Source of the DNA: Bradyrhizobium sp. B124
GTDB taxonomy: Bacteria > Pseudomonadota > Alphaproteobacteria > Rhizobiales > Xanthobacteraceae
Assembly: GCF_038967635.1 (NCBI RefSeq)
Contig: NZ_CP152413.1
Span: 6,762,001-6,826,000, forward strand
DNA: 64,000 bases
Direction of reading: 5' to 3'
Shown: one piece after another, positions 45,805 through 54,978 of the stretch
Layout of the letters: each line of letters starts with the position of its first letter
Numbering within the stretch: the first letter of the stretch is position 1
The notes under the pieces: generated by a model
Databases searched by the model: none
Told to the model about the DNA's origin: nothing
Seen by the model: only the letters and a program-made list of their open reading frames with translations
Translations under genes and position numbers: made by a program

Positions 45805-46965
45805 TCAAGCTTTCGGGTTTACCCCGGCCACCGGCGGCGGAACGGCCAGAAGGAAGCAGACCGATTCCACCAGCAGCTCATGTGCACGGTCGACGATGTC
45901 GTCCAGCGACGGCGTCTTCGCGAACATGGCCTGGGCTTCAGCCAACAACTGCTCGCGCGTTGGCATGCTGGGCAGATGCAAATCGGCACGATGCTGCAAC
46001 AGAAAAAGCGCGTCCCGCACCGACAATCCGGTTTCGTGGATTGAGGATTTGATCGCCTGCGCAATGTGTTCGGGGTTGAAACGGCCGGCAAGCTGCTCAG
46101 CCGTCCGCTTGATCACACGCGATCCCAGGCGCTGCTCGTTGCGGAGAACCTGCGCGGGCGGCGCCTTGAGATCCCAGACGACACCGAACCAGGACAAGGC
46201 CACCAGGACATAATAGGTCGCGTCGATCTCCCACCGGCGGAAGCCTTGCCGCGCGCTGCTTTGATAGGCGTGGTGATTGTTGTGCCAACCCTCACCCATC
46301 GTAACCAGCGCCAGCAGCCAATTGTTGCGGGAGTCATCGCCCGTCACGTATCGCTTGCGTCCGTGAACATGTGCGAGGGAGTTGATGCAAAACGTTGCGT
46401 GATACACCAGCACGGTGCTCCAGAAGAAACCGGCCAGGAGCCCCGGCCACCCGGCAATGAGGAAGCACAGGACTGCGACCACGACCGCCGGCAAAACCTC
46501 GAATTTGTGCAGCCACATCAACTCCGGATACGCGGCAAAATCCGCAACTTTCGTCAGATCAGTCGCATCGTGCTGTCGATAGAAGATCCAGCCGAGATGA
46601 CTGTACACGAAGCCTTTGTGCCGGGGTGAATGCACATCCTGCTCGGTATCCGAATGAAGGTGGTGATGTCGATGTTTCGCAGCCCACCAAAGGATACTTT
46701 TCTGGGCGCTGCTTTGGGCAAGGAATGCAAGGATGAATTGAAACGCCCGGCTGGTCGAATAAGCCCGGTGCGAGAAGTAGCGATGATACCCGGCCGTGAT
46801 CGCAAACATGCGCAGCCAATACAGCGCGACGCAAATTGCAATCGCCGGCCATGAGACGCCCGACCAGATCGCCGCCAGACACCCCAAATGGACCAGCACG
46901 AACGGCAGGACCTGCGGGTACATGATGTCGTCGTGCTGCGGCGCCGGATCGATACTGGTGGACAC
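45805..46965 (-). CDS. Delta-9-type acyl-lipid/acyl-CoA fatty acid desaturase
   Basis: A 386-residue membrane di-iron desaturase with the three histidine boxes HRYFSH (near residue 61), HRHHH (near 99) and HNNHH (near 233). Four transmembrane helices as in stearoyl-type desaturases, followed by a ~125-residue C-terminal helical tail (SVRDALFLLQHRADLHL...) beyond the usual end. The start is a GTG at 46965 with GAGG upstream; an ATG at 46923 would remove 14 residues. It should introduce the cis-9 double bond and adjust membrane fluidity, fitting the cold-shock gene just upstream. Confidence 0.92.
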   Translation of the reverse strand: MSTSIDPAPQHDDIMYPQVLPFVLVHLGCLAAIWSGVSWPAIAICVALYWLRMFAITAGYHRYFSHRAYSTSRAFQFILAFLAQSSAQKSILWWAAKHRHHHLHSDTEQDVHSPRHKGFVYSHLGWIFYRQHDATDLTKVADFAAYPELMWLHKFEVLPAVVVAVLCFLIAGWPGLLAGFFWSTVLVYHATFCINSLAHVHGRKRYVTGDDSRNNWLLALVTMGEGWHNNHHAYQSSARQGFRRWEIDATYYVLVALSWFGVVWDLKAPPAQVLRNEQRLGSRVIKRTAEQLAGRFNPEHIAQAIKSSIHETGLSVRDALFLLQHRADLHLPSMPTREQLLAEAQAMFAKTPSLDDIVDRAHELLVESVCFLLAVPPPVAGVNPKA

Positions 46966-47599: not shown

Positions 47600-48208
47600 C
47601 TAATCCTTCTTCGCCGTCAGGCCGTCGACCATCGCCCGCGTCAAAGTGGAGATCTCGCTGCGCAGCGCCCCGATCGGCACCGCGATCAGCTTGTGCTCCA
47701 GCCCGAGCGCGACCATGCCGTGGACAGCTGAGAACAGGCTGCGCGCGGTGACGCCGAGCTGCGCCGGCGAGCGCTGCGGAAACAGTGCCGCGAGCGGCTT
47801 GTAGATGTGGCGGAACAGTTCCATCTGCTCGGTGATCGCCCATTCCGGCACCGGCTTGCCGGGCTGCATCCGGTGCTCGAACAGCGCGCGCCACAGTTCG
47901 AGATTGTCGGCCGCGAAGTCGCAATAGGCGACCGCGATCCGGACCAGCATCTCGCGCGGCGCGGCCGCGCCGCGGATCTCGGCCAGCGACAGCGAAGCAT
48001 CGAGCCGGGCCAGCGTACGCGAGCCGACGCGCAGGATCAGCTCATCGACATCCTCGACCAGATTGTAGACGCCGCCATTGGCGACGCCGATTTCCTGGGC
48101 CAGTTCGCGGGTTTTCAGGCCACCGAGACCCTTTGCCGCAATTGCCCGTTCCGCCGCCTCGATCAGCGCTTCGCGCAGTTTTGCACGTCGTTCCAATGCT
48201 TTGGACAT
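47600..48208 (-). CDS. TetR/AcrR family repressor
   Basis: A 202-residue TetR regulator with the DNA-binding unit LREALIEAAERAIAAKGLGG, ELAQEIGVANGGVYNLVEDV in its first 65 residues, and a C-terminal TetR ligand domain (WRALFEHRMQPGKPVPEW) similar to the TetR_C_33-like group. Divergent from a pspA-like gene; the shared region carries three 13-bp palindromes, the nearest 20 bases before its own start, so it probably controls itself and the stress genes. Confidence 0.9.
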   Translation of the reverse strand: MSKALERRAKLREALIEAAERAIAAKGLGGLKTRELAQEIGVANGGVYNLVEDVDELILRVGSRTLARLDASLSLAEIRGAAAPREMLVRIAVAYCDFAADNLELWRALFEHRMQPGKPVPEWAITEQMELFRHIYKPLAALFPQRSPAQLGVTARSLFSAVHGMVALGLEHKLIAVPIGALRSEISTLTRAMVDGLTAKKD

Positions 48209-48227: not shown

Positions 48228-48296
48228 TGAGCGTCGCTCAAATAAATCTTGAGCAGCGCTCATTATATGGTACAAGAGATTCATGAGCGATGCTCA
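48228..48296. promoter_or_regulatory. Three copies of a TGAGC-N3-GCTCA palindrome
   Basis: TGAGCGTCGCTCA (48228-48240), TGAGCAGCGCTCA (48250-48262) and TGAGCGATGCTCA (48284-48296) are near-identical 13-bp dyads, centres 22 and 34 bases apart. They fill the 105-bp region between the divergent TetR and pspA-like genes; the third lies 18 bases before the pspA-like start. Very likely TetR operators for both promoters. Confidence 0.9.
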
Positions 48297-48313
48297 TAAC
48301 AGGGAGTGGCCAA

Positions 48314-49009
48314 ATGTTCAAAACTGTTTTGACGATTTTCCGCGGCAGCGTGGCGGCAGCCGAGGAGGAACTGCAAGATCGGACCGCGCTGGTCGTCCTC
48401 GACCAGCAGATGCGCGATGCCGCCGCCGCGGTCGACCGCTCGAAACGGACCCTGGCGCTCGCCATTGCCGGCGACCAGCAGGAGGGCCGGCGGCTCGAGG
48501 CGACCAATGCCCGGATCACCGATCTCGAGGTGCGCGCCTCGGCGGCGCTCGAAGGCGGCCGGGACGATCTCGCCCGCGAAGCCGCGCAGGCGATCGCCAA
48601 CCTGGAAGCCGAACGCGACGCCGCGATGACCGCGCGCACGCTGTTCGCCACCGAGATCACCCGGCTGAAGCGCCACGTCGCCAATGCCGAGGCGCGCATT
48701 GCCGAGCTCGATCGCGGCCGGCGCCTTGCCCGTGCCTCGGAAGCGGTGCGTTCGCTGCGCCGAAGCGGCATCGAGGCGGCGCGGCCCTACGAGTCGACGC
48801 TGCCGGAAGCGGAAGCCACGCTGAAGCGGTTGCGCGAGCGGCAGATGGAGACCCAGGCGGCCGACGACGCGCTGTTCGAGATCGACACCGCCTCGGGCCC
48901 ATCAGCCACCGCCGAGAAGCTCGCCGAGCAGGGCTTTGGCCCGCGGATGAAATCGACCGCCGACGACGTGCTGGCGCGCTTGAGAGCCAAGCGCCCGCCT
49001 GCCGCCTGA
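48314..49009 (+). CDS. PspA/IM30 family protein
   Basis: A 231-residue, almost entirely helical protein starting MFKTVLTIFRGSV, as PspA/Vipp1 proteins do, with long coiled-coil stretches (LDQQMRDAAAAVDRSKRTLA; ARIAELDRGRRLARASEAV). The family binds the inner membrane during stress and represses PspF in enterobacteria; no PspF is here. The ATG at 48314 follows AGGGAG. Forms a two-gene unit with the YiaAB-like protein, 70 bases on. Confidence 0.88.
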   Translation: MFKTVLTIFRGSVAAAEEELQDRTALVVLDQQMRDAAAAVDRSKRTLALAIAGDQQEGRRLEATNARITDLEVRASAALEGGRDDLAREAAQAIANLEAERDAAMTARTLFATEITRLKRHVANAEARIAELDRGRRLARASEAVRSLRRSGIEAARPYESTLPEAEATLKRLRERQMETQAADDALFEIDTASGPSATAEKLAEQGFGPRMKSTADDVLARLRAKRPPAA

Positions 49010-49079
49010 GAACGCAAGCCTGAAACCTCGAGCCTGAAACCGAGCCAACTTCAAATCACCCATTATCAAGGAGACGACC

Positions 49080-49355
49080 ATGAACCAGACCATCCAACCC
49101 CACAGCGGCAGCTGGGTTACCTTCACCTACGCGTCCTTCGCAGCCTCTGCCTTCCTCGTCGCCGTCGGCGTGTTCTTTCTGCCGATCGACCTTTGGATGA
49201 AGGGCTATCTCACGATGGGCATCGTGATGCTGGTCCAGACCTGCGTCACGCTGACCAAGACGGTGCGCGACAATTACGAGAGCAGCAAGTTCGTGAACCG
49301 GATCGAGGACGCCAAGGCCGAGCGCCTGCTGATGGAAGTCTCCAAGGCGGCGTGA
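49080..49355 (+). CDS. YiaA/YiaB-type two-helix membrane protein
   Basis: A 91-residue protein with two hydrophobic helices (FTYASFAASAFLVAVGVFFL; KGYLTMGIVMLVQTCVTLTK) joined by a short turn PIDLWM, as in the YiaAB domain, and a charged C-terminal tail (ESSKFVNRIEDAKAER). Start ATG at 49080 behind AAGGAGACG. Likely an inner-membrane partner of the PspA-like protein, under the same TetR. Confidence 0.88.
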   Translation: MNQTIQPHSGSWVTFTYASFAASAFLVAVGVFFLPIDLWMKGYLTMGIVMLVQTCVTLTKTVRDNYESSKFVNRIEDAKAERLLMEVSKAA

Positions 49356-49744: not shown

Positions 49745-50800
49745 ATGGCGTCCACGGACAATCGCACCCCCGCTTCGCGTGGCAGCAGGAGCCTTGCCAA
49801 AGCGCGCGCGGCCTTTGACGGCCTGCGCAGCCATGGCGGCTTCTGGCTGAAGGCGCTGTCGCAACCGACCATCGATCTCACCTTGCGCACCCAGGCCGGC
49901 CAGCGCACCCGCATCGTCGAGGCGCCCGGCCTGTCGCTGCCGAAGGACGAGCTCGACGCGCTGGTCGGGCAGCTCCGCGTCGTCGCCGCCAAGACGCTGC
50001 CCGAGGAGAGCCTGACTTATGGCATCTTCTCCGGTGAGCCCGAGCGGCTGTCGCGCGCCATCATCACTCTGATCTCCGAGGAAGACACCGGACGGCCGAT
50101 CGCGTTCAACGCCCTGTCGGTGATGGACGTGCCGCTCGACGGCGAGCCCGCTGAAGTGACCCATCTCGGCCTCGTCATGGTCGATCCTGATGTGCGCGGG
50201 CAGGGGCTGTCCTGGGTGCTCTACGGCCTGACCGCGCTGGTGCTGTTCGCCCGCGATGGCTTGCGGCCGAAATGGATCTCCAATGTCACCCAGGTGCCGG
50301 CGGTGGTCGGCATGGTCAGCGACACCTTCTCGGACGTGTTTCCGTCGCCGCAGCCGGGGGCGCGGCAGAGCTTTGCGCATCTGCAGCTCGCGCGCGGCAT
50401 CATGGCGCGGCATCGCGCGGTGTTCGGCGTCGGCGAGGAGGCCGGCTTCGACGAAGCGCGCTCGGTGATCACCAATGCCTATACCGGCGGCTCGGATGCG
50501 CTGAAGAAGACTTTCGAGATCGCGCCGAAGCATCGCGATGCCGTCTACAACGAATTTTGCGAGCGCGAGCTGGATTACGGCCGCGGCGACGATGTGCTGC
50601 AGATCGGCCGCGTCGATCTTGCCGGCGCGCGCCGCTATCTGATGAGCGAGGTGCCCTCGGGCTCGCTGCCGGCGCTGCTCGCGGCGTCCGCAATGCTGGC
50701 ATTGCAGCGGCTGGTGCTGCCGGTGGTCTACTGGATGGACGACACCCGCGCCTTCGGCACCTTGCGGCCGCGCAAGCAGGAGAGCGGGACCGCGCGATGA
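49745..50800 (+). CDS. GNAT-like acyltransferase, gene 1 of five-gene operon
   Basis: A 351-residue protein with a GNAT motif-A region (VTHLGLVMVDPDVRGQGLSW; V-x5-R-G-Q-G) at about 145-165 and a long C-terminal portion of unknown type (RSVITNAYTGGSDALKKTFE, AVYNEFCERELDYGRGDD). Longer than plain GNATs (~170), so it may have two GNAT-like halves or a membrane-touching end (LPALLAASAMLALQRLVLPV). ATG at 49745, no ribosome site change. Its stop overlaps the ThiF start (ATGA at 50797). Confidence 0.8.
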   Translation: MASTDNRTPASRGSRSLAKARAAFDGLRSHGGFWLKALSQPTIDLTLRTQAGQRTRIVEAPGLSLPKDELDALVGQLRVVAAKTLPEESLTYGIFSGEPERLSRAIITLISEEDTGRPIAFNALSVMDVPLDGEPAEVTHLGLVMVDPDVRGQGLSWVLYGLTALVLFARDGLRPKWISNVTQVPAVVGMVSDTFSDVFPSPQPGARQSFAHLQLARGIMARHRAVFGVGEEAGFDEARSVITNAYTGGSDALKKTFEIAPKHRDAVYNEFCERELDYGRGDDVLQIGRVDLAGARRYLMSEVPSGSLPALLAASAMLALQRLVLPVVYWMDDTRAFGTLRPRKQESGTAR

Positions 50801-51672
50801 ATTTCGATTACTACTCCTTCACCGGCCGCAACATCGGCTTCATCGACGAGCACGAGCAGCAGCTCTTGCGCCAGGCGCGGGTGTTCGTGTGCGGCGTCGG
50901 CGGCATGGGCGGCGCGGCCTTCATGGCGCTGGCGCGCGCCGGCGTCGGCAAGTTCGTGATCGCCGACATCGATCGCTTCGAGGTCTCCAACCTCAATCGC
51001 CAGGTATTCGCCTTCGCCGACGAGGTCGGCCGCGAGAAGGCCGCCGTCGCCGCCGAAGCCGCCAAACGCATCAACCCGACCATCGAGGTCGAGGTGCTCG
51101 GCGAGAACTGGACCAGTGAGCTCGCCGGCATTGCCGAACGCTGCCCGGTGATCGTCAACGGCATGGACGATATCGCCGCCGGCGTGCATCTGTACCGGAC
51201 CGCCAAGCGCGCCGGTTCAACCGTGATCGACGCCTATATGTCGCCGTTGCCGTCGGTGATCGTGGTGCGCCCGCACGATCCGCGGCCCGAGGAGCGCCTC
51301 GGCTTTCCCACGCTGGCCAAGGACTGGACTGATATCACCGAGGACGACCGTCGCGCCGCGATGCGTGCCGAGATCGAGCACGTCATGCTGCATTCCTCGT
51401 CGCGCAACTATGTCGACCTCGCGATCGCCGGTGAAGTCGCGGCCGGCCGCCGCAGCCGGATGTCGTTCGCGCCGATGGTGATCTCGACCGGCATGCTGAT
51501 GGCCTATGAGGCGGTCGCGCTGATCCTCGGCCGCACCTCCGGCACCGACTGCCGCGGCTGGTTCCTCAATCCGCACCGGCCCGCGATCGAGAAGCCGCGC
51601 AATGCGCTGATCGCGGCCCTGATGCGCCCGCTGGTGCGGCGGGCGATCGATCAATTGACGGGCGTCGCATGA
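50797..51672 (+). CDS. ThiF/E1-like adenylyltransferase, gene 2 of five-gene operon
   Basis: A 291-residue E1-type Rossmann protein: ATP loop VCGVGGMGGAAFMALARAGV near residue 30, then DIDRFEVSNLNRQVF, the classic ThiF/MoeB/UBA metal-and-ATP motif, and GREKAAVAAEAAKRINP. The CxxC zinc pairs of MoeB are absent and no obvious E1 thioester Cys is seen (a lone ERCPVI and a DCRG). It could adenylate a small protein tail or a carboxylate, or act like tRNA-modifying TcdA. ATGA joins on both sides. Confidence 0.88.
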   Translation: MNFDYYSFTGRNIGFIDEHEQQLLRQARVFVCGVGGMGGAAFMALARAGVGKFVIADIDRFEVSNLNRQVFAFADEVGREKAAVAAEAAKRINPTIEVEVLGENWTSELAGIAERCPVIVNGMDDIAAGVHLYRTAKRAGSTVIDAYMSPLPSVIVVRPHDPRPEERLGFPTLAKDWTDITEDDRRAAMRAEIEHVMLHSSSRNYVDLAIAGEVAAGRRSRMSFAPMVISTGMLMAYEAVALILGRTSGTDCRGWFLNPHRPAIEKPRNALIAALMRPLVRRAIDQLTGVA

Positions 51673-52868
51673 CCTCGGGGGTGATCGCCGATTCCATCGT
51701 CAATCTCTGCGGCGCCATCGGCGTCGCGGTGGCGATGATGACGTTCTACCGGCGCGATCCCCGAAGCCCGCTGACGCGCCGCCTGCTGCTCGCGCTCGGC
51801 GTGATCGCGACCCTGTTCCTCGATCGTGGCCTCGCGTGGTGGAGCGGAAGCTGGCTGCTCGATCGTCTCTCGGTGATCCCGGCCGCGCTGATTCCGCTCG
51901 GCGCGCTGATCGTCACCGAAGGCATCCTGCGCCGCCACGCGCCGCGCGCGGTCAAGATCGCGGCGCTCGCAGGCGGCATCGTGCTCGGCCTCGGCGGCAC
52001 GTTCGGGCTGCAACGCCTGGTGATGCCCTATGCAATCACGCTGGCGCTGTTCCAGCTGGTTGGCTTTGCGACCTGCGCGCTGCTGCTGGCGACGCGCGAC
52101 CGCGCCTCGCTGATGGCGTCGGAGAACCGCAGCATCGGCCGCATGGCGGTCGGCGCGCTGGTGGTGATCCCGTTCATCCTGACCGATTTCCGCACGCTGT
52201 TTCCCGATATTCCGGTCCGGCTCGGTGCGCTGGGGGCGCTGCTCACGGTCACCGTGATGCTGATCGCCGGTGGCGGCGCCGAGACACGGCGGCATGGGCT
52301 TGCGATGATGGCGCTGCGGCTGATTTCTTCGGGTCTGCTCGGCCTCGCCGCCGCCTTCATGGCGCCCGATGTCGATGCCGCGCAGATGATCCGGTTCGTC
52401 GCGGTCGCGATTGCCGGCGTGCTGACCATCGGGCTGATGACGGATGCTCTGCGCGCGCTGTTCGAATCGCAGGAGCCCGGCGTGCTCAACTCGGTCGCGG
52501 CGTCGCCGGCGCAGACGCGGGAGCAGCTGATCGCCGAGCTCGCACGGCATCCGATCTTTGAGAGCGCGCGGCGCTTCCGCGAAGACGAGCTTGCACCCTA
52601 CGATCCGCCGCTGCTCCGCGACTTCCTGTCGACGAGGCGCGTGCTGCGCCGCTCCGAGGCGCCGTGGGGACTGGCGCCGACCGACCCCGCCGCCGAGCGC
52701 ATGGCCTCGCTGATGACTGCGAACAGCGCCTCCCATGTCATCGTGCTCGCGCATGATCCGCTCGACCTGATCGTGCTCGCGGTGCCGGTCACCGCGGCCG
52801 ATCCCGCCACCGAAACCGCGTTGGCGCTGGTGCGGCGGCTGCTGGCGCTGACCCCGGAGGCCAAATGA
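51669..52868 (+). CDS. Multipass membrane protein, gene 3 of five-gene operon
   Basis: A 399-residue protein with about eight hydrophobic helices in residues 1-275 (for example LLLALGVIATLFL, ITLALFQLVGFATCALLLA, LGALLTVTVMLIAGGG) and a ~120-residue soluble C-terminal tail (SPAQTREQLIAELARHPIFE...). No family recognised. Starts ATGA-overlapping with the ThiF gene and stops overlapping the next gene by the same rule. Confidence 0.82.
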   Translation: MTSGVIADSIVNLCGAIGVAVAMMTFYRRDPRSPLTRRLLLALGVIATLFLDRGLAWWSGSWLLDRLSVIPAALIPLGALIVTEGILRRHAPRAVKIAALAGGIVLGLGGTFGLQRLVMPYAITLALFQLVGFATCALLLATRDRASLMASENRSIGRMAVGALVVIPFILTDFRTLFPDIPVRLGALGALLTVTVMLIAGGGAETRRHGLAMMALRLISSGLLGLAAAFMAPDVDAAQMIRFVAVAIAGVLTIGLMTDALRALFESQEPGVLNSVAASPAQTREQLIAELARHPIFESARRFREDELAPYDPPLLRDFLSTRRVLRRSEAPWGLAPTDPAAERMASLMTANSASHVIVLAHDPLDLIVLAVPVTAADPATETALALVRRLLALTPEAK

Positions 52869-53986
52869 CGCTGGAGATCCGGGAAGGCGACCGCAAGGCG
52901 GCCTTCGACGCCGCGCTCAATGCCTATGGGCCCGACAGCCTCTACGTGCCGCCGCTGTGGAGCGATTTCGACCGGATGTTCGATGCTGCGGAGAACCCGT
53001 TCATCACCGAAGGCCATGGCCGCTATGCGCTGTTCTCGGCGCATCGCGACGGCCGCCCGGTCGGCCGCATCGCCGCCTCGATCCACGACGCCTCCAACCG
53101 CAAGCACGGCACACGTCACGGCGCGTTCGGTTTCTTCGACTGTATCGACGAGCCTGATGTTGCCGATCTGTTGTTGCGCACTGCCGAGCAGTGGCTGTCC
53201 GCGCGCGGCATGACCCGTATCGCCGGCAATTTCAATCTGACGGCGATGCAGCAGATCGGCGTGATGACCGACGGCTTCGACCATGCGCCGTTCACCGACA
53301 TGATGTGGTCGCCGCCGCATATCGCGCGTCACCTCGAACGCGCCGGTTATGCCGCGACCTTCCCGATGACGACGTTCGAGATCGCGCTCGACGGCGGCAA
53401 GCCGGAGCAGCTGCTCGGCGACAAGCAGCGCGCGGTGCTGGCCGACAAGGACTTCGTCTGGCAGCCGATCAAGCGCTCCGCCTTCAAGGTCCGGCTGGAA
53501 GATGCGCGCCTGATCCTGAACGACGGCTTTGCCGACAACCCGATGTTCGTGCCGCCGACCGCGGCCGAATATCTGTTCCAGGCCGGCGACATGATGTGGA
53601 TCATCGACAAGCGGATTTCGACCGTGGTCTATCACCGCGGCCGGCCCGCCGGCGCGATCATCGCGATCCCCGATCTCAACCCGCTGATCAAGGCGATCGG
53701 CGGCCGGGTCGGGCTGACCGCGCCGTTCAAATTCGTGCAGCACCGCATGATGAACACCCGCGCCGTGCTGATCTATCAGTCGGTCTGCCGCGACCTGCAC
53801 AATCGCGGCCTCAACGGCGCGATGCTCTACCGCACCGCGCTGGCGTTGCAGGAGGCCGGCTACCGCACGCTCGGCGGCACCTGGATCGCCGACATCAACG
53901 CGCCGTCGCTGCGCCAGGTCGAGAAGGCGGGCGCCACGCCGCTGCACCGGCTGCATCTGTTCACCAAGAGGCTGGCCGCGGCATGA
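52865..53986 (+). CDS. GNAT-like (YghO-type) acyltransferase-like protein, gene 4 of five-gene operon
   Basis: A 373-residue protein of two related alpha/beta halves resembling the YghO-like GNAT group: first half with GRYALFSAHRDGRPVGRIAA and ARGMTRIAGNFNLT, second with VYHRGRPAGAIIAIPDLN and the LQEAGYRTLGGTWI, NAPSLRQVEKAGATPLHRLH ending typical of GNAT C-termini (xNxxxxxxxxKxGxxxxxxxxx). Ends ATGA-overlapping the nitroreductase. Probably acyl transfer, donor unknown. Confidence 0.8.
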   Translation: MTLEIREGDRKAAFDAALNAYGPDSLYVPPLWSDFDRMFDAAENPFITEGHGRYALFSAHRDGRPVGRIAASIHDASNRKHGTRHGAFGFFDCIDEPDVADLLLRTAEQWLSARGMTRIAGNFNLTAMQQIGVMTDGFDHAPFTDMMWSPPHIARHLERAGYAATFPMTTFEIALDGGKPEQLLGDKQRAVLADKDFVWQPIKRSAFKVRLEDARLILNDGFADNPMFVPPTAAEYLFQAGDMMWIIDKRISTVVYHRGRPAGAIIAIPDLNPLIKAIGGRVGLTAPFKFVQHRMMNTRAVLIYQSVCRDLHNRGLNGAMLYRTALALQEAGYRTLGGTWIADINAPSLRQVEKAGATPLHRLHLFTKRLAAA

Positions 53987-54978
53987 GCGAGCTGACGCCG
54001 GACTTGCTGCGCGAGCTGGTCGCCGAGGCGCGGCTGGCGCCGAGCGTCCACAACATCCAGCCGACCCGCTGGCGTTTGCTCGGCGACGGGCGGTTGGCGC
54101 TGGTCGACGCGACCTGGGTCCGCGCGCCGGTCGCCGATCCCGCCGGACACGACGTGCTTGTCTCGCACGGCGCGGCGCTGGAGGGCATGAGCCTTGCCCT
54201 CAACCGCCGCGGCCTCGCCATCACGGCGATGACCACGATCGAGCAGCCGCTGTCGCCGCAATTTACTGCGCTCTGCAGCTTTGCGATCAGGCAAGGTGTC
54301 GCGCCCGATCCGTTGGCCGGCCATGTGGCGCACCGGATGTCGTGGCGCGGCAAGTTCGCGGCGTCGCCGGATGAGCCCGCGCCGCTGGTGCAGCTCGCCG
54401 TCGCGTGTGACGATCTGGTCTGCATCGGGGGTCGCCAGGCAATTGCCGATATCGCCGGCTGGGCCGACCAGGCTGAATTCTCCATCGTGCACGGCGACGA
54501 CTATCGGGCCGAACTGCTCGAATGGATGCGGCTGTCGCCCGACCATCCGCACTATCTGCTCGACGGCCTCAATCGCGAAGCGCTTGCCATGAGCGCGGTC
54601 GAGGCCACCGCCGCCCGCTTCGTGCTCGGCAGCCTGTTCAAGCCGCTCGATCGTCTCGGCCTCGCCGCATCGCTGCTCTCAGACAGCGCCAAGACCGCCT
54701 CGGCCGCGGCGATCGTGCTGTTCTGTCGTCCGGTCGGTGAGGATCCACTCACGACGGGGCGGCATTTCTACCGGTGCTGGCTGGAGATCGATCGCGCCGG
54801 GCTCGTGGCATGCCCGATCTCGGCGCTGGCCGATCACCCTGATTTCAACGACCGGCTGCGCAAGCTCGGCGGGATCGGCACCGATCTGCGCCTCGTCAAC
54901 GTGTTCCGCATAGGTCGGCCGGCAAAACCACTGGAACCGCGGCATTTCCGGCTGCCGGTCGATCGGCTCATCGTCTAG
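53983..54978 (+). CDS. Acg-type nitroreductase-like flavoprotein, gene 5 of five-gene operon
   Basis: A 331-residue protein with the nitroreductase-fold opening LLRELVAEARLAPSVHNIQPTRW and the interior of the Acg-like branch (mycobacterial Acg/Rv3131-type, fused halves, ~330 residues), ending PVGEDPLTTGRHFYRCWLEI and VNVFRIGRPAKPLEPRHFRL. FMN-binding residues are only partly recognisable; some Acg proteins are flavin-sequestering and not catalytic. ATGA start at 53983; stop at 54978 abuts a palindromic repeat. Confidence 0.85.
   Translation: MSELTPDLLRELVAEARLAPSVHNIQPTRWRLLGDGRLALVDATWVRAPVADPAGHDVLVSHGAALEGMSLALNRRGLAITAMTTIEQPLSPQFTALCSFAIRQGVAPDPLAGHVAHRMSWRGKFAASPDEPAPLVQLAVACDDLVCIGGRQAIADIAGWADQAEFSIVHGDDYRAELLEWMRLSPDHPHYLLDGLNREALAMSAVEATAARFVLGSLFKPLDRLGLAASLLSDSAKTASAAAIVLFCRPVGEDPLTTGRHFYRCWLEIDRAGLVACPISALADHPDFNDRLRKLGGIGTDLRLVNVFRIGRPAKPLEPRHFRLPVDRLIV

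Follow-up and report, generated by a model that had tools for sequence, protein, structure and literature searches.

What would bring together, in one tightly packed transcription unit, two acyltransferase-like proteins, an E1-like adenylating enzyme, a membrane protein, and a nitroreductase-type flavoprotein? Such an operon occupies positions 49745-54978 of the window, the 64,000-nucleotide stretch of Bradyrhizobium sp. B124 analyzed here (contig NZ_CP152413.1, positions 6,762,001 to 6,826,000), which derives from a 9.17 Mb single-contig genome whose nearest relatives, among those listed, are mostly Bradyrhizobium. Our analysis indicates that the five genes make up a single, conserved functional module. 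What the module makes is a harder question; we put at somewhat short of an even chance the answer that it constitutes a membrane-associated lipid or N-acyl small-molecule pathway, functioning like the known acyl-oxazolone pathways but not orthologous to them. The operon consists of five open reading frames (ORFs):

49745..50800, + strand: gene 1, GNAT1, 351 aa; predicted GNAT fold with an acyl-CoA-type loop, DPDVRGQGLS
50797..51672, + strand: gene 2, ThiF/E1-like adenylyltransferase, 291 aa; PF00899, E 7e-37
51669..52868, + strand: gene 3, membrane protein, 399 aa; approximately nine transmembrane helices and a soluble C-terminal part of ~130 residues
52865..53986, + strand: gene 4, GNAT2, 373 aa; N-acyltransferase-like, kin of proteins found in bacterial ceramide synthase (CerS) gene contexts
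53983..54978, + strand: gene 5, NTR, 331 aa; nitroreductase-superfamily flavoprotein, Acg-like; PF00881, E 2e-7

These coordinates, together with a reading of the junctions, bear out the five co-directional genes and four ATGA overlaps described in the first-pass annotation of this DNA. Because the N-terminal ~40 residues of GNAT1 are variable, the true start of gene 1 may lie downstream of the annotated position. We scanned GTDB with an alignment of gene 4, a search that may omit records from the window's own or very near genomes; it returned 176 relatives, the best 80 of which were retained as loci. All five genes are present in the same order and on one strand in 62 of these 80, with the set cut by contig ends in 4 and gene 4 standing alone in 14, chiefly Rhodobacterales. 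Six of the complete loci (L040, L046, L048, L073, L082, and L108) have a split or shortened version of one or two of the genes. If ATG, GTG, and TTG are all counted as starts, the -4 overlap survives at junctions 1, 2, 3, and 4 in 55, 52, 50, and 41 of the 62 loci, respectively, and at all four in 28. Bradyrhizobium near-copies account for 18 of those 28; 10 of the 41 non-Bradyrhizobium loci retain every overlap.

The loci in which gene 4 has no operon around it proved informative. Among these 14 genomes, 13 encode an operon-type ThiF (E <= 6.1e-117), and each of these ThiFs resides, away from gene 4, in a cluster encoding GNAT1, ThiF, the transmembrane protein, and NTR, in that order. The exception is a 2.2 Mb genome with neither an operon-type ThiF nor a match to the NTR profile. 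In a tree of gene 4, the 7 unlinked copies that were included nest inside the operon copies. It appears, then, that gene 4 moved away yet remains with the set of genes 1, 2, 3, and 5 in the same genomes, and this persistent co-occurrence is stronger evidence of shared function than synteny alone. The co-occurrence of the five families that the first-pass annotation proposed to look for is thus found, both in the 62 ordered loci and in the 13 genomes that keep the other four genes clustered, and the scattering of the genes among relatives that would have counted against its claim is not what we see.

Complete sets were identified in, among others, Bradyrhizobium, Bosea, Hyphomicrobium, Ensifer, Shinella, Brevundimonas, Ruegeria, Sphingomonas, and Halomonas, as well as in a metagenome bin that is not proteobacterial. 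Occurrence is nonetheless patchy: with the best 5 candidates scored per genome, as in our genome searches for gene-4 relatives and, at class level, for gene 1, the latter was found in 3 of 385 genomes of the class, and it is present in 56 of 146 genomes of the genus.

We asked what the individual proteins reveal of the module's chemistry, beginning with ThiF. Its residues R68, K81, and D124 align with R73, K86, and D130 of MoeB, which we take to be residues that act in the ATP site of that enzyme, and the adenylation site is intact. The first-pass annotation was correct that the protein lacks the zinc-binding cysteine pairs of MoeB, as CxxC is found in 0 of 61 operon ThiFs; yet the motif is also missing from 29 of 31 other ThiF/MoeB-like proteins of related genomes, so its loss does not discriminate. 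ThiF scores far under the cut-offs of the MoeB model NF004281 (88 of 266 bits), the ThiF model TIGR02356 (85 of 275), and NF005901, the Rv1355c/TrzS family (42.8 bits, cut-off 476). In a midpoint-rooted tree of 57 sequences, comprising 22 operon ThiFs, five related to the family PRK08223, and 30 other ThiF/MoeB-like proteins not named by the family scan (TyzB, OxzB, and TrzS are not among the rows), the operon ThiFs group with the five PRK08223-side proteins (L167-L170 and L006) apart from the other 30 (99/97). One of the five, at L169, lies in a row with a FeeM-type acyltransferase and a flavoprotein, and another, at L167, adjoins an acyltransferase of the same FeeM type; no acyltransferase or flavoprotein neighbor was recognized beside the ThiF genes of L168 and L170. 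As a separate observation, several gammaproteobacterial PRK08223 ThiF genes (L200-L218) adjoin FeeM-type acyltransferases without an adjacent flavoprotein, and some of the neighbors there resemble secreted PEP-CTERM-type proteins.

The two acyltransferase-like proteins have different affinities. GNAT1 yields only a sub-threshold GNAT match in Pfam/NCBIfam (E 0.0085) and is a GNAT by predicted fold. None of 34 GNAT1 members matches FeeM, Acetyltransf_5, or Autoind_synth at E <= 0.01, versus 8 of 8 control acyltransferases from ThiF loci that match all three, and FeeM is not among the 50 matches listed in a fold search with GNAT1. Aligned by hhalign to the FeeM-type acyltransferases of ThiF loci, GNAT1 and GNAT2 reach probabilities of 0.3% and 0.2%, respectively. 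Gene 4 itself has no Pfam match, but PF00583 turns up in many of the 120 relatives listed for it. By profile comparison, GNAT2 aligns over its full length with a CerS-context family (hhalign E 2.7e-49, 365 columns, 27% identity). Across 27 selected loci, that family is accompanied by an LptF/LptG gene in 20 and an Spt-like aminotransferase gene in 11, neighbor families that were each named from one representative by Pfam, and the published surroundings of cerS are similar (PMC11324152). On these sequence grounds, GNAT2 is kin to proteins of bacterial ceramide synthase surroundings. It forms its own clade together with the unlinked GNAT2s (100/99), outside the CerS-context clade, and the named conserved neighbor families of the operon include no lptF/lptG, spt, or kinase genes. 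Where gene 4 is unlinked (14 loci, L075-L103), its neighbors, named by inspection of their sequences, include a HAD-type-phosphatase-like protein in 13 and a trimethylamine-methyltransferase-like protein in 11.

The best family match of NTR is NF047509, the Acg/Rv3131 family (E 3.4e-40), at 138.5 bits and thus below the 199-bit cut-off; in 61 genomes of the order, 18 other matches to this family score 212-322 bits and one partial match scores 158. Similarity to the Rv1355c family NF005901 is slight (40 bits, cut-off 476). Among solved sequences, Acg (2YMV) comes closest (E 2.7e-19), and the operon NTRs, which form one clade (100/100), share the motif APSxHNxQPxR, which reads APSVHNIQPTR in the window. 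By eye, twin-arginine-like signals are visible in many Acg-type proteins of related genomes and in none of the operon NTRs in our tree. NTR is encoded in 65 of 66 operon loci, the exception (L051) being where the contig ends, and in all 13 unlinked-GNAT2 genomes that have the set, which suggests that its role within the module is constant.

Gene 3 encodes nine hydrophobic stretches within its N-terminal 270 residues, followed by a mostly soluble C-terminal part, and residues R53, E84, R88, H90, K96, E152, and D173 are invariant over 34 aligned sequences. No accepted Pfam family covers it, the one hit being to a holin model below threshold, and a Foldseek search produced no match at E <= 0.001. 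We set aside matches to G-protein-coupled receptor-like VIA entries, as the resemblance is at the level of a helical bundle only.

How might these parts work together? The first-pass annotation invoked mycobacterial MoeW and MoeY, the latter of which we take to be Rv1355c, as a sign that ThiF and nitroreductase folds are functionally linked. That suggestion holds: Rv2338c, annotated as MoeW, is TyzB, and Rv1355c is TrzS, and both now appear in the literature as oxazolone enzymes. Its statement that the combination corresponds to no familiar pathway fares less evenly, since an acyltransferase, a ThiF protein, and a nitroreductase-fold flavoprotein form the published acyl-oxazolone toolkit (TyzABC, TrzAS, and OxzAB; PMC10404671, PMC12856293, PMC12479983), while the exact five-gene set was not found in the open-licence PubMed Central papers searched. 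In that toolkit, TyzA N-acylates Tyr or Phe, TyzB cyclizes the product with ATP, and TyzC desaturates it with O2 (PMC10404671); TrzA and TrzS perform the same chemistry on Trp, and substitution of an Asp in the ThiF domain, located near ATP, abolishes cyclization (PMC12856293). The oxazolones themselves are labile, undergoing hydrolysis in acid and reacting with methanol or ethanol (PMC12856293). Clusters of N-acyl amino acid synthase (NAS), ThiF, and nitroreductase genes are reported from Pseudomonadota and Planctomycetota (PMC12479983).

Our data establish which genes are present, their order and co-occurrence, the intact ATP site of ThiF, and the fold or kinship of the parts; from these we infer, by analogy, the following substrates, order of reactions, product, and roles for GNAT1 and the membrane protein. 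GNAT2, as a CerS-like N-acyltransferase, would attach a fatty acyl group to the amine of a substrate that is either amino-acid-like or an amino-lipid. ThiF would then adenylate the free carboxylate of that substrate with ATP, allowing the amide oxygen, or another nucleophile, to close a ring as in TyzB and TrzS, and the Acg-like flavoprotein would desaturate the product with O2. GNAT1 might add a second acyl or acetyl group or prime the substrate, paired with the nine-helix membrane protein, which would anchor the complex and perhaps also pass on the lipid or export it.

In favor of this proposal are the conservation of the module, the grouping of its ThiF with PRK08223-side proteins of which two have acyltransferase neighbors, the intact ATP site, the kinship of GNAT2 with the CerS-context family, an Aas-type acyl-ACP synthetase/acyltransferase gene close to the operon in 18 of 43 loci, and the relatedness of both NTR and the TrzS flavoprotein domain to Acg. 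Several results weigh against it. The Pfam and hhalign results detect no FeeM/LuxI-type N-acyl amino acid synthase in the operon. The identity of the LptF/LptG-linked proteins as CerS is putative, being assigned by gene context. PRK08223 (NF006077), the best NCBIfam match of ThiF, is itself reached at only 118 bits against a cut-off of 266. Moreover, among 20 gammaproteobacterial PRK08223-type loci examined with flanks of ~1.5 kb, a tested FeeM-type acyltransferase is present in 7 and a recognizable flavoprotein beside ThiF in only 2; given these low counts, the PRK08223-side clade cannot be read as an oxazolone clade throughout. The NTRs, for their part, lie nearer to Acg-type proteins than to the flavoproteins of two ThiF-adjacent loci, which we took to represent FDO-A in a tree that does not include TyzC, OxzB, or TrzS, although the joining branch is weak (90/68). 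For Acg-like FDOs, PMC10404671 goes no further than suggesting lipid desaturation, and we found no proven desaturase activity for Acg-type FDOs in the literature examined. Finally, two of the three class genomes with gene 1 (G370 and G427, completeness 100 and 96) carry only genes 1 and 3, adjacent to one another (L231:7144-9323 and L232:6828-9007). Their best ThiF-like proteins are distant (68.6 and 73.8 bits) and none is operon-type; as for NTR, one genome has a distant relative (73.9 bits) and the other yielded none. Neither is listed with a gene-4 relative in an equally large draw that scored the best 5 candidates of each genome. Since this pair persists without an operon-type ThiF or NTR, GNAT1 and the membrane protein look like a separable core.

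The shortage of flavoproteins at PRK08223-type loci slightly lowers our estimate of the proposed pathway and slightly raises that of a different one, in which the operon remodels membrane aminolipids. GNAT2 and GNAT1 would acylate a headgroup, ThiF would activate a carboxylate so that an amide or ester forms but no ring closes, and NTR would serve as a redox sensor or flavin store. The genes around the operon bear on this possibility, and in the window they include:

45805-46965, - strand: gene resembling fatty acid desaturases (PF00487), at a distance of a few kb
47600..48208, - strand: TetR-type regulator upstream of the operon, a candidate operon regulator; 24 of 43 loci have a relative of it close to the operon
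48283-49023, + strand: ORF of 246 aa between the TetR and YiaAB genes; no Pfam/NCBIfam match at E <= 0.001
49080..49355, + strand: YiaAB two-helix membrane protein upstream of the operon; 24 of 43 loci (23 at >60 bits) have a relative of it nearby

The 43 loci (41 non-Bradyrhizobium and 2 Bradyrhizobium) were analyzed for ORFs of at least 80 aa in families present in at least 6 loci, a filter under which smaller or rarer genes would go undetected. The orientation of the TetR and YiaAB relatives with respect to the operon varies. An Aas-type acyl-ACP synthetase/acyltransferase gene is found near the operon in 18 of the loci, and in 15 a RoxA-like or di-haem-peroxidase-like cytochrome gene lies just downstream on the opposite strand, converging on the operon (L065, L066, L067, L069, L072, L074, L080, L081, L082, L084, L090, L093, L094, L104, and L110). 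The cytochrome never co-occurs with TetR, YiaAB, or Aas neighbors scoring >60 bits; there are two alternative neighborhoods for one operon. The window has no match to the Aas or cytochrome neighbors. Collectively, the four families point to acyl-lipid metabolism under local control. The Aas-type and YiaAB neighbors, the desaturase-like gene, the CerS-like GNAT2, and the operon's own membrane protein all favor aminolipid remodeling, which is opposed by the N-acyl amino acid synthase-type genes adjoining some of the nearest ThiFs and by the near-invariable presence of NTR. We regard it as unlikely, though worth keeping in contention.

The operon could instead be a true member of the Tyz/Oxz/Trz group with two extra genes: GNAT1 or GNAT2 would N-acylate an aromatic amino acid, ThiF would close the oxazolone ring, and NTR would desaturate it. 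A single transcription unit contains all three functional classes of those pathways, its ThiF belongs to a sister clade, its genes overlap as do those of published NAS-ThiF-nitroreductase clusters (PMC12479983), and a gene for a membrane protein, mmpL9, is likewise close to the tyz genes (PMC10404671). However, the defining FeeM-type synthase was tested for and not found, by Pfam in GNAT1 and by hhalign in both acyltransferases, and NTR is far from the flavoproteins of the two ThiF-adjacent loci. We conclude from the missing synthase that the operon is not an orthologous member of this group, and we consider the membership hypothesis improbable.

The first-pass annotation also raised the prospect of a small protein partner ending in GG, as in sulfur-carrier or ubiquitin-like activation of the MoeB/ThiF/UBA type. 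The ThiF fold and its intact ATP site are compatible with this already disfavored reading, but published oxazolone ThiFs act on N-acyl amino acids, and between 40 and 60 kb of the window no sense-strand ORF of 40-140 aa ends in GG; the one ORF of this size that does, 63 residues long, runs antisense to a pair of + strand ORFs. In addition, the operon ThiFs form a clade apart from other ThiF/MoeB-like proteins, and the TetR, YiaAB, Aas, and cytochrome neighbor families are not JAB, E2, or ubiquitin-like, although no search aimed specifically at these three kinds of protein was made. A protein partner of this kind is therefore highly unlikely. That unrelated genes came together by chance or hitch-hiking, as patchy occurrence might hint, deserves almost no credence given the order kept as far afield as Halomonas and a non-proteobacterial bin and the co-occurrence that outlasts the unlinking of GNAT2.

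Returning to a pathway that parallels acyl-oxazolone synthesis, a bolder version can be entertained, albeit tentatively: the operon may define a largely alphaproteobacterial, previously undescribed class of lipid pathway, in which a CerS-type N-acyltransferase would supply both an E1-type cyclase and an Acg-type flavoprotein, all of them added to an older core of GNAT1 and the nine-helix protein, yielding a cyclic acyl lipid unlike the tyrazolones. If so, it would provide the first enzymatic context for Acg-type FDOs; more generally, if NTR is catalytic here, the operon is a context for an Acg-like FDO. Oxazolone lipids are a recent discovery. A conserved sister system that soil and marine bacteria share, using another kind of acyltransferase and having a membrane protein of its own, would broaden the known chemistry and offer a non-pathogenic setting for its study. 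It would also connect enzymes resembling ceramide synthase with E1 chemistry and open the function of Acg-type flavoproteins to testing.

Among known systems, TyzA-TyzB-TyzC resembles the operon in encoding together an acyltransferase, a single-domain ThiF cyclase, and a single-domain flavoprotein of the nitroreductase superfamily. It differs in that TyzA is FeeM/LuxI-like by fold, there are three genes with tyzA on the other strand, and TyzC is an FDO-A whereas NTR is Acg-like; no ceramide-synthase-like protein is named there to compare with GNAT2, and the nearby transporter gene mmpL9 encodes a named MmpL, unlike the operon's membrane protein (PMC10404671). TrzA-TrzS (Rv1356c-Rv1355c), the tryptazolone system, shares an ATP-dependent ThiF cyclase with an essential Asp and an Acg-related FMN desaturase, and in structural comparison the flavoprotein domain of TrzS came closest to Acg 2YMV (PMC12856293); TrzS, however, is a ThiF-FDO fusion, whereas the operon's ThiF and NTR are separate and far below the Rv1355c cut-off. 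The stieleriacine, thalassotalic acid, and kyonggic acid clusters likewise encode an acyltransferase, ThiF, and a nitroreductase in an operon-like arrangement with short gaps or overlapping ORFs (PMC12479983). L169 is a cluster of this make-up, with a FeeM-type acyltransferase where the operon's two are not. With respect to CerS (CC_1154; PMC11324152, PMC11087976), GNAT2 aligns with the CerS-context family from end to end but belongs to its own clade and sits inside a ThiF operon instead of beside spt or lptFG genes. Lastly, Acg (2YMV)/Rv3131 is the closest solved sequence to NTR and shares its APSxHNxQPxR motif; NTR is set apart by its sub-cut-off family score, by the lack of a visible twin-arginine-like signal, and by its place in a ThiF operon.

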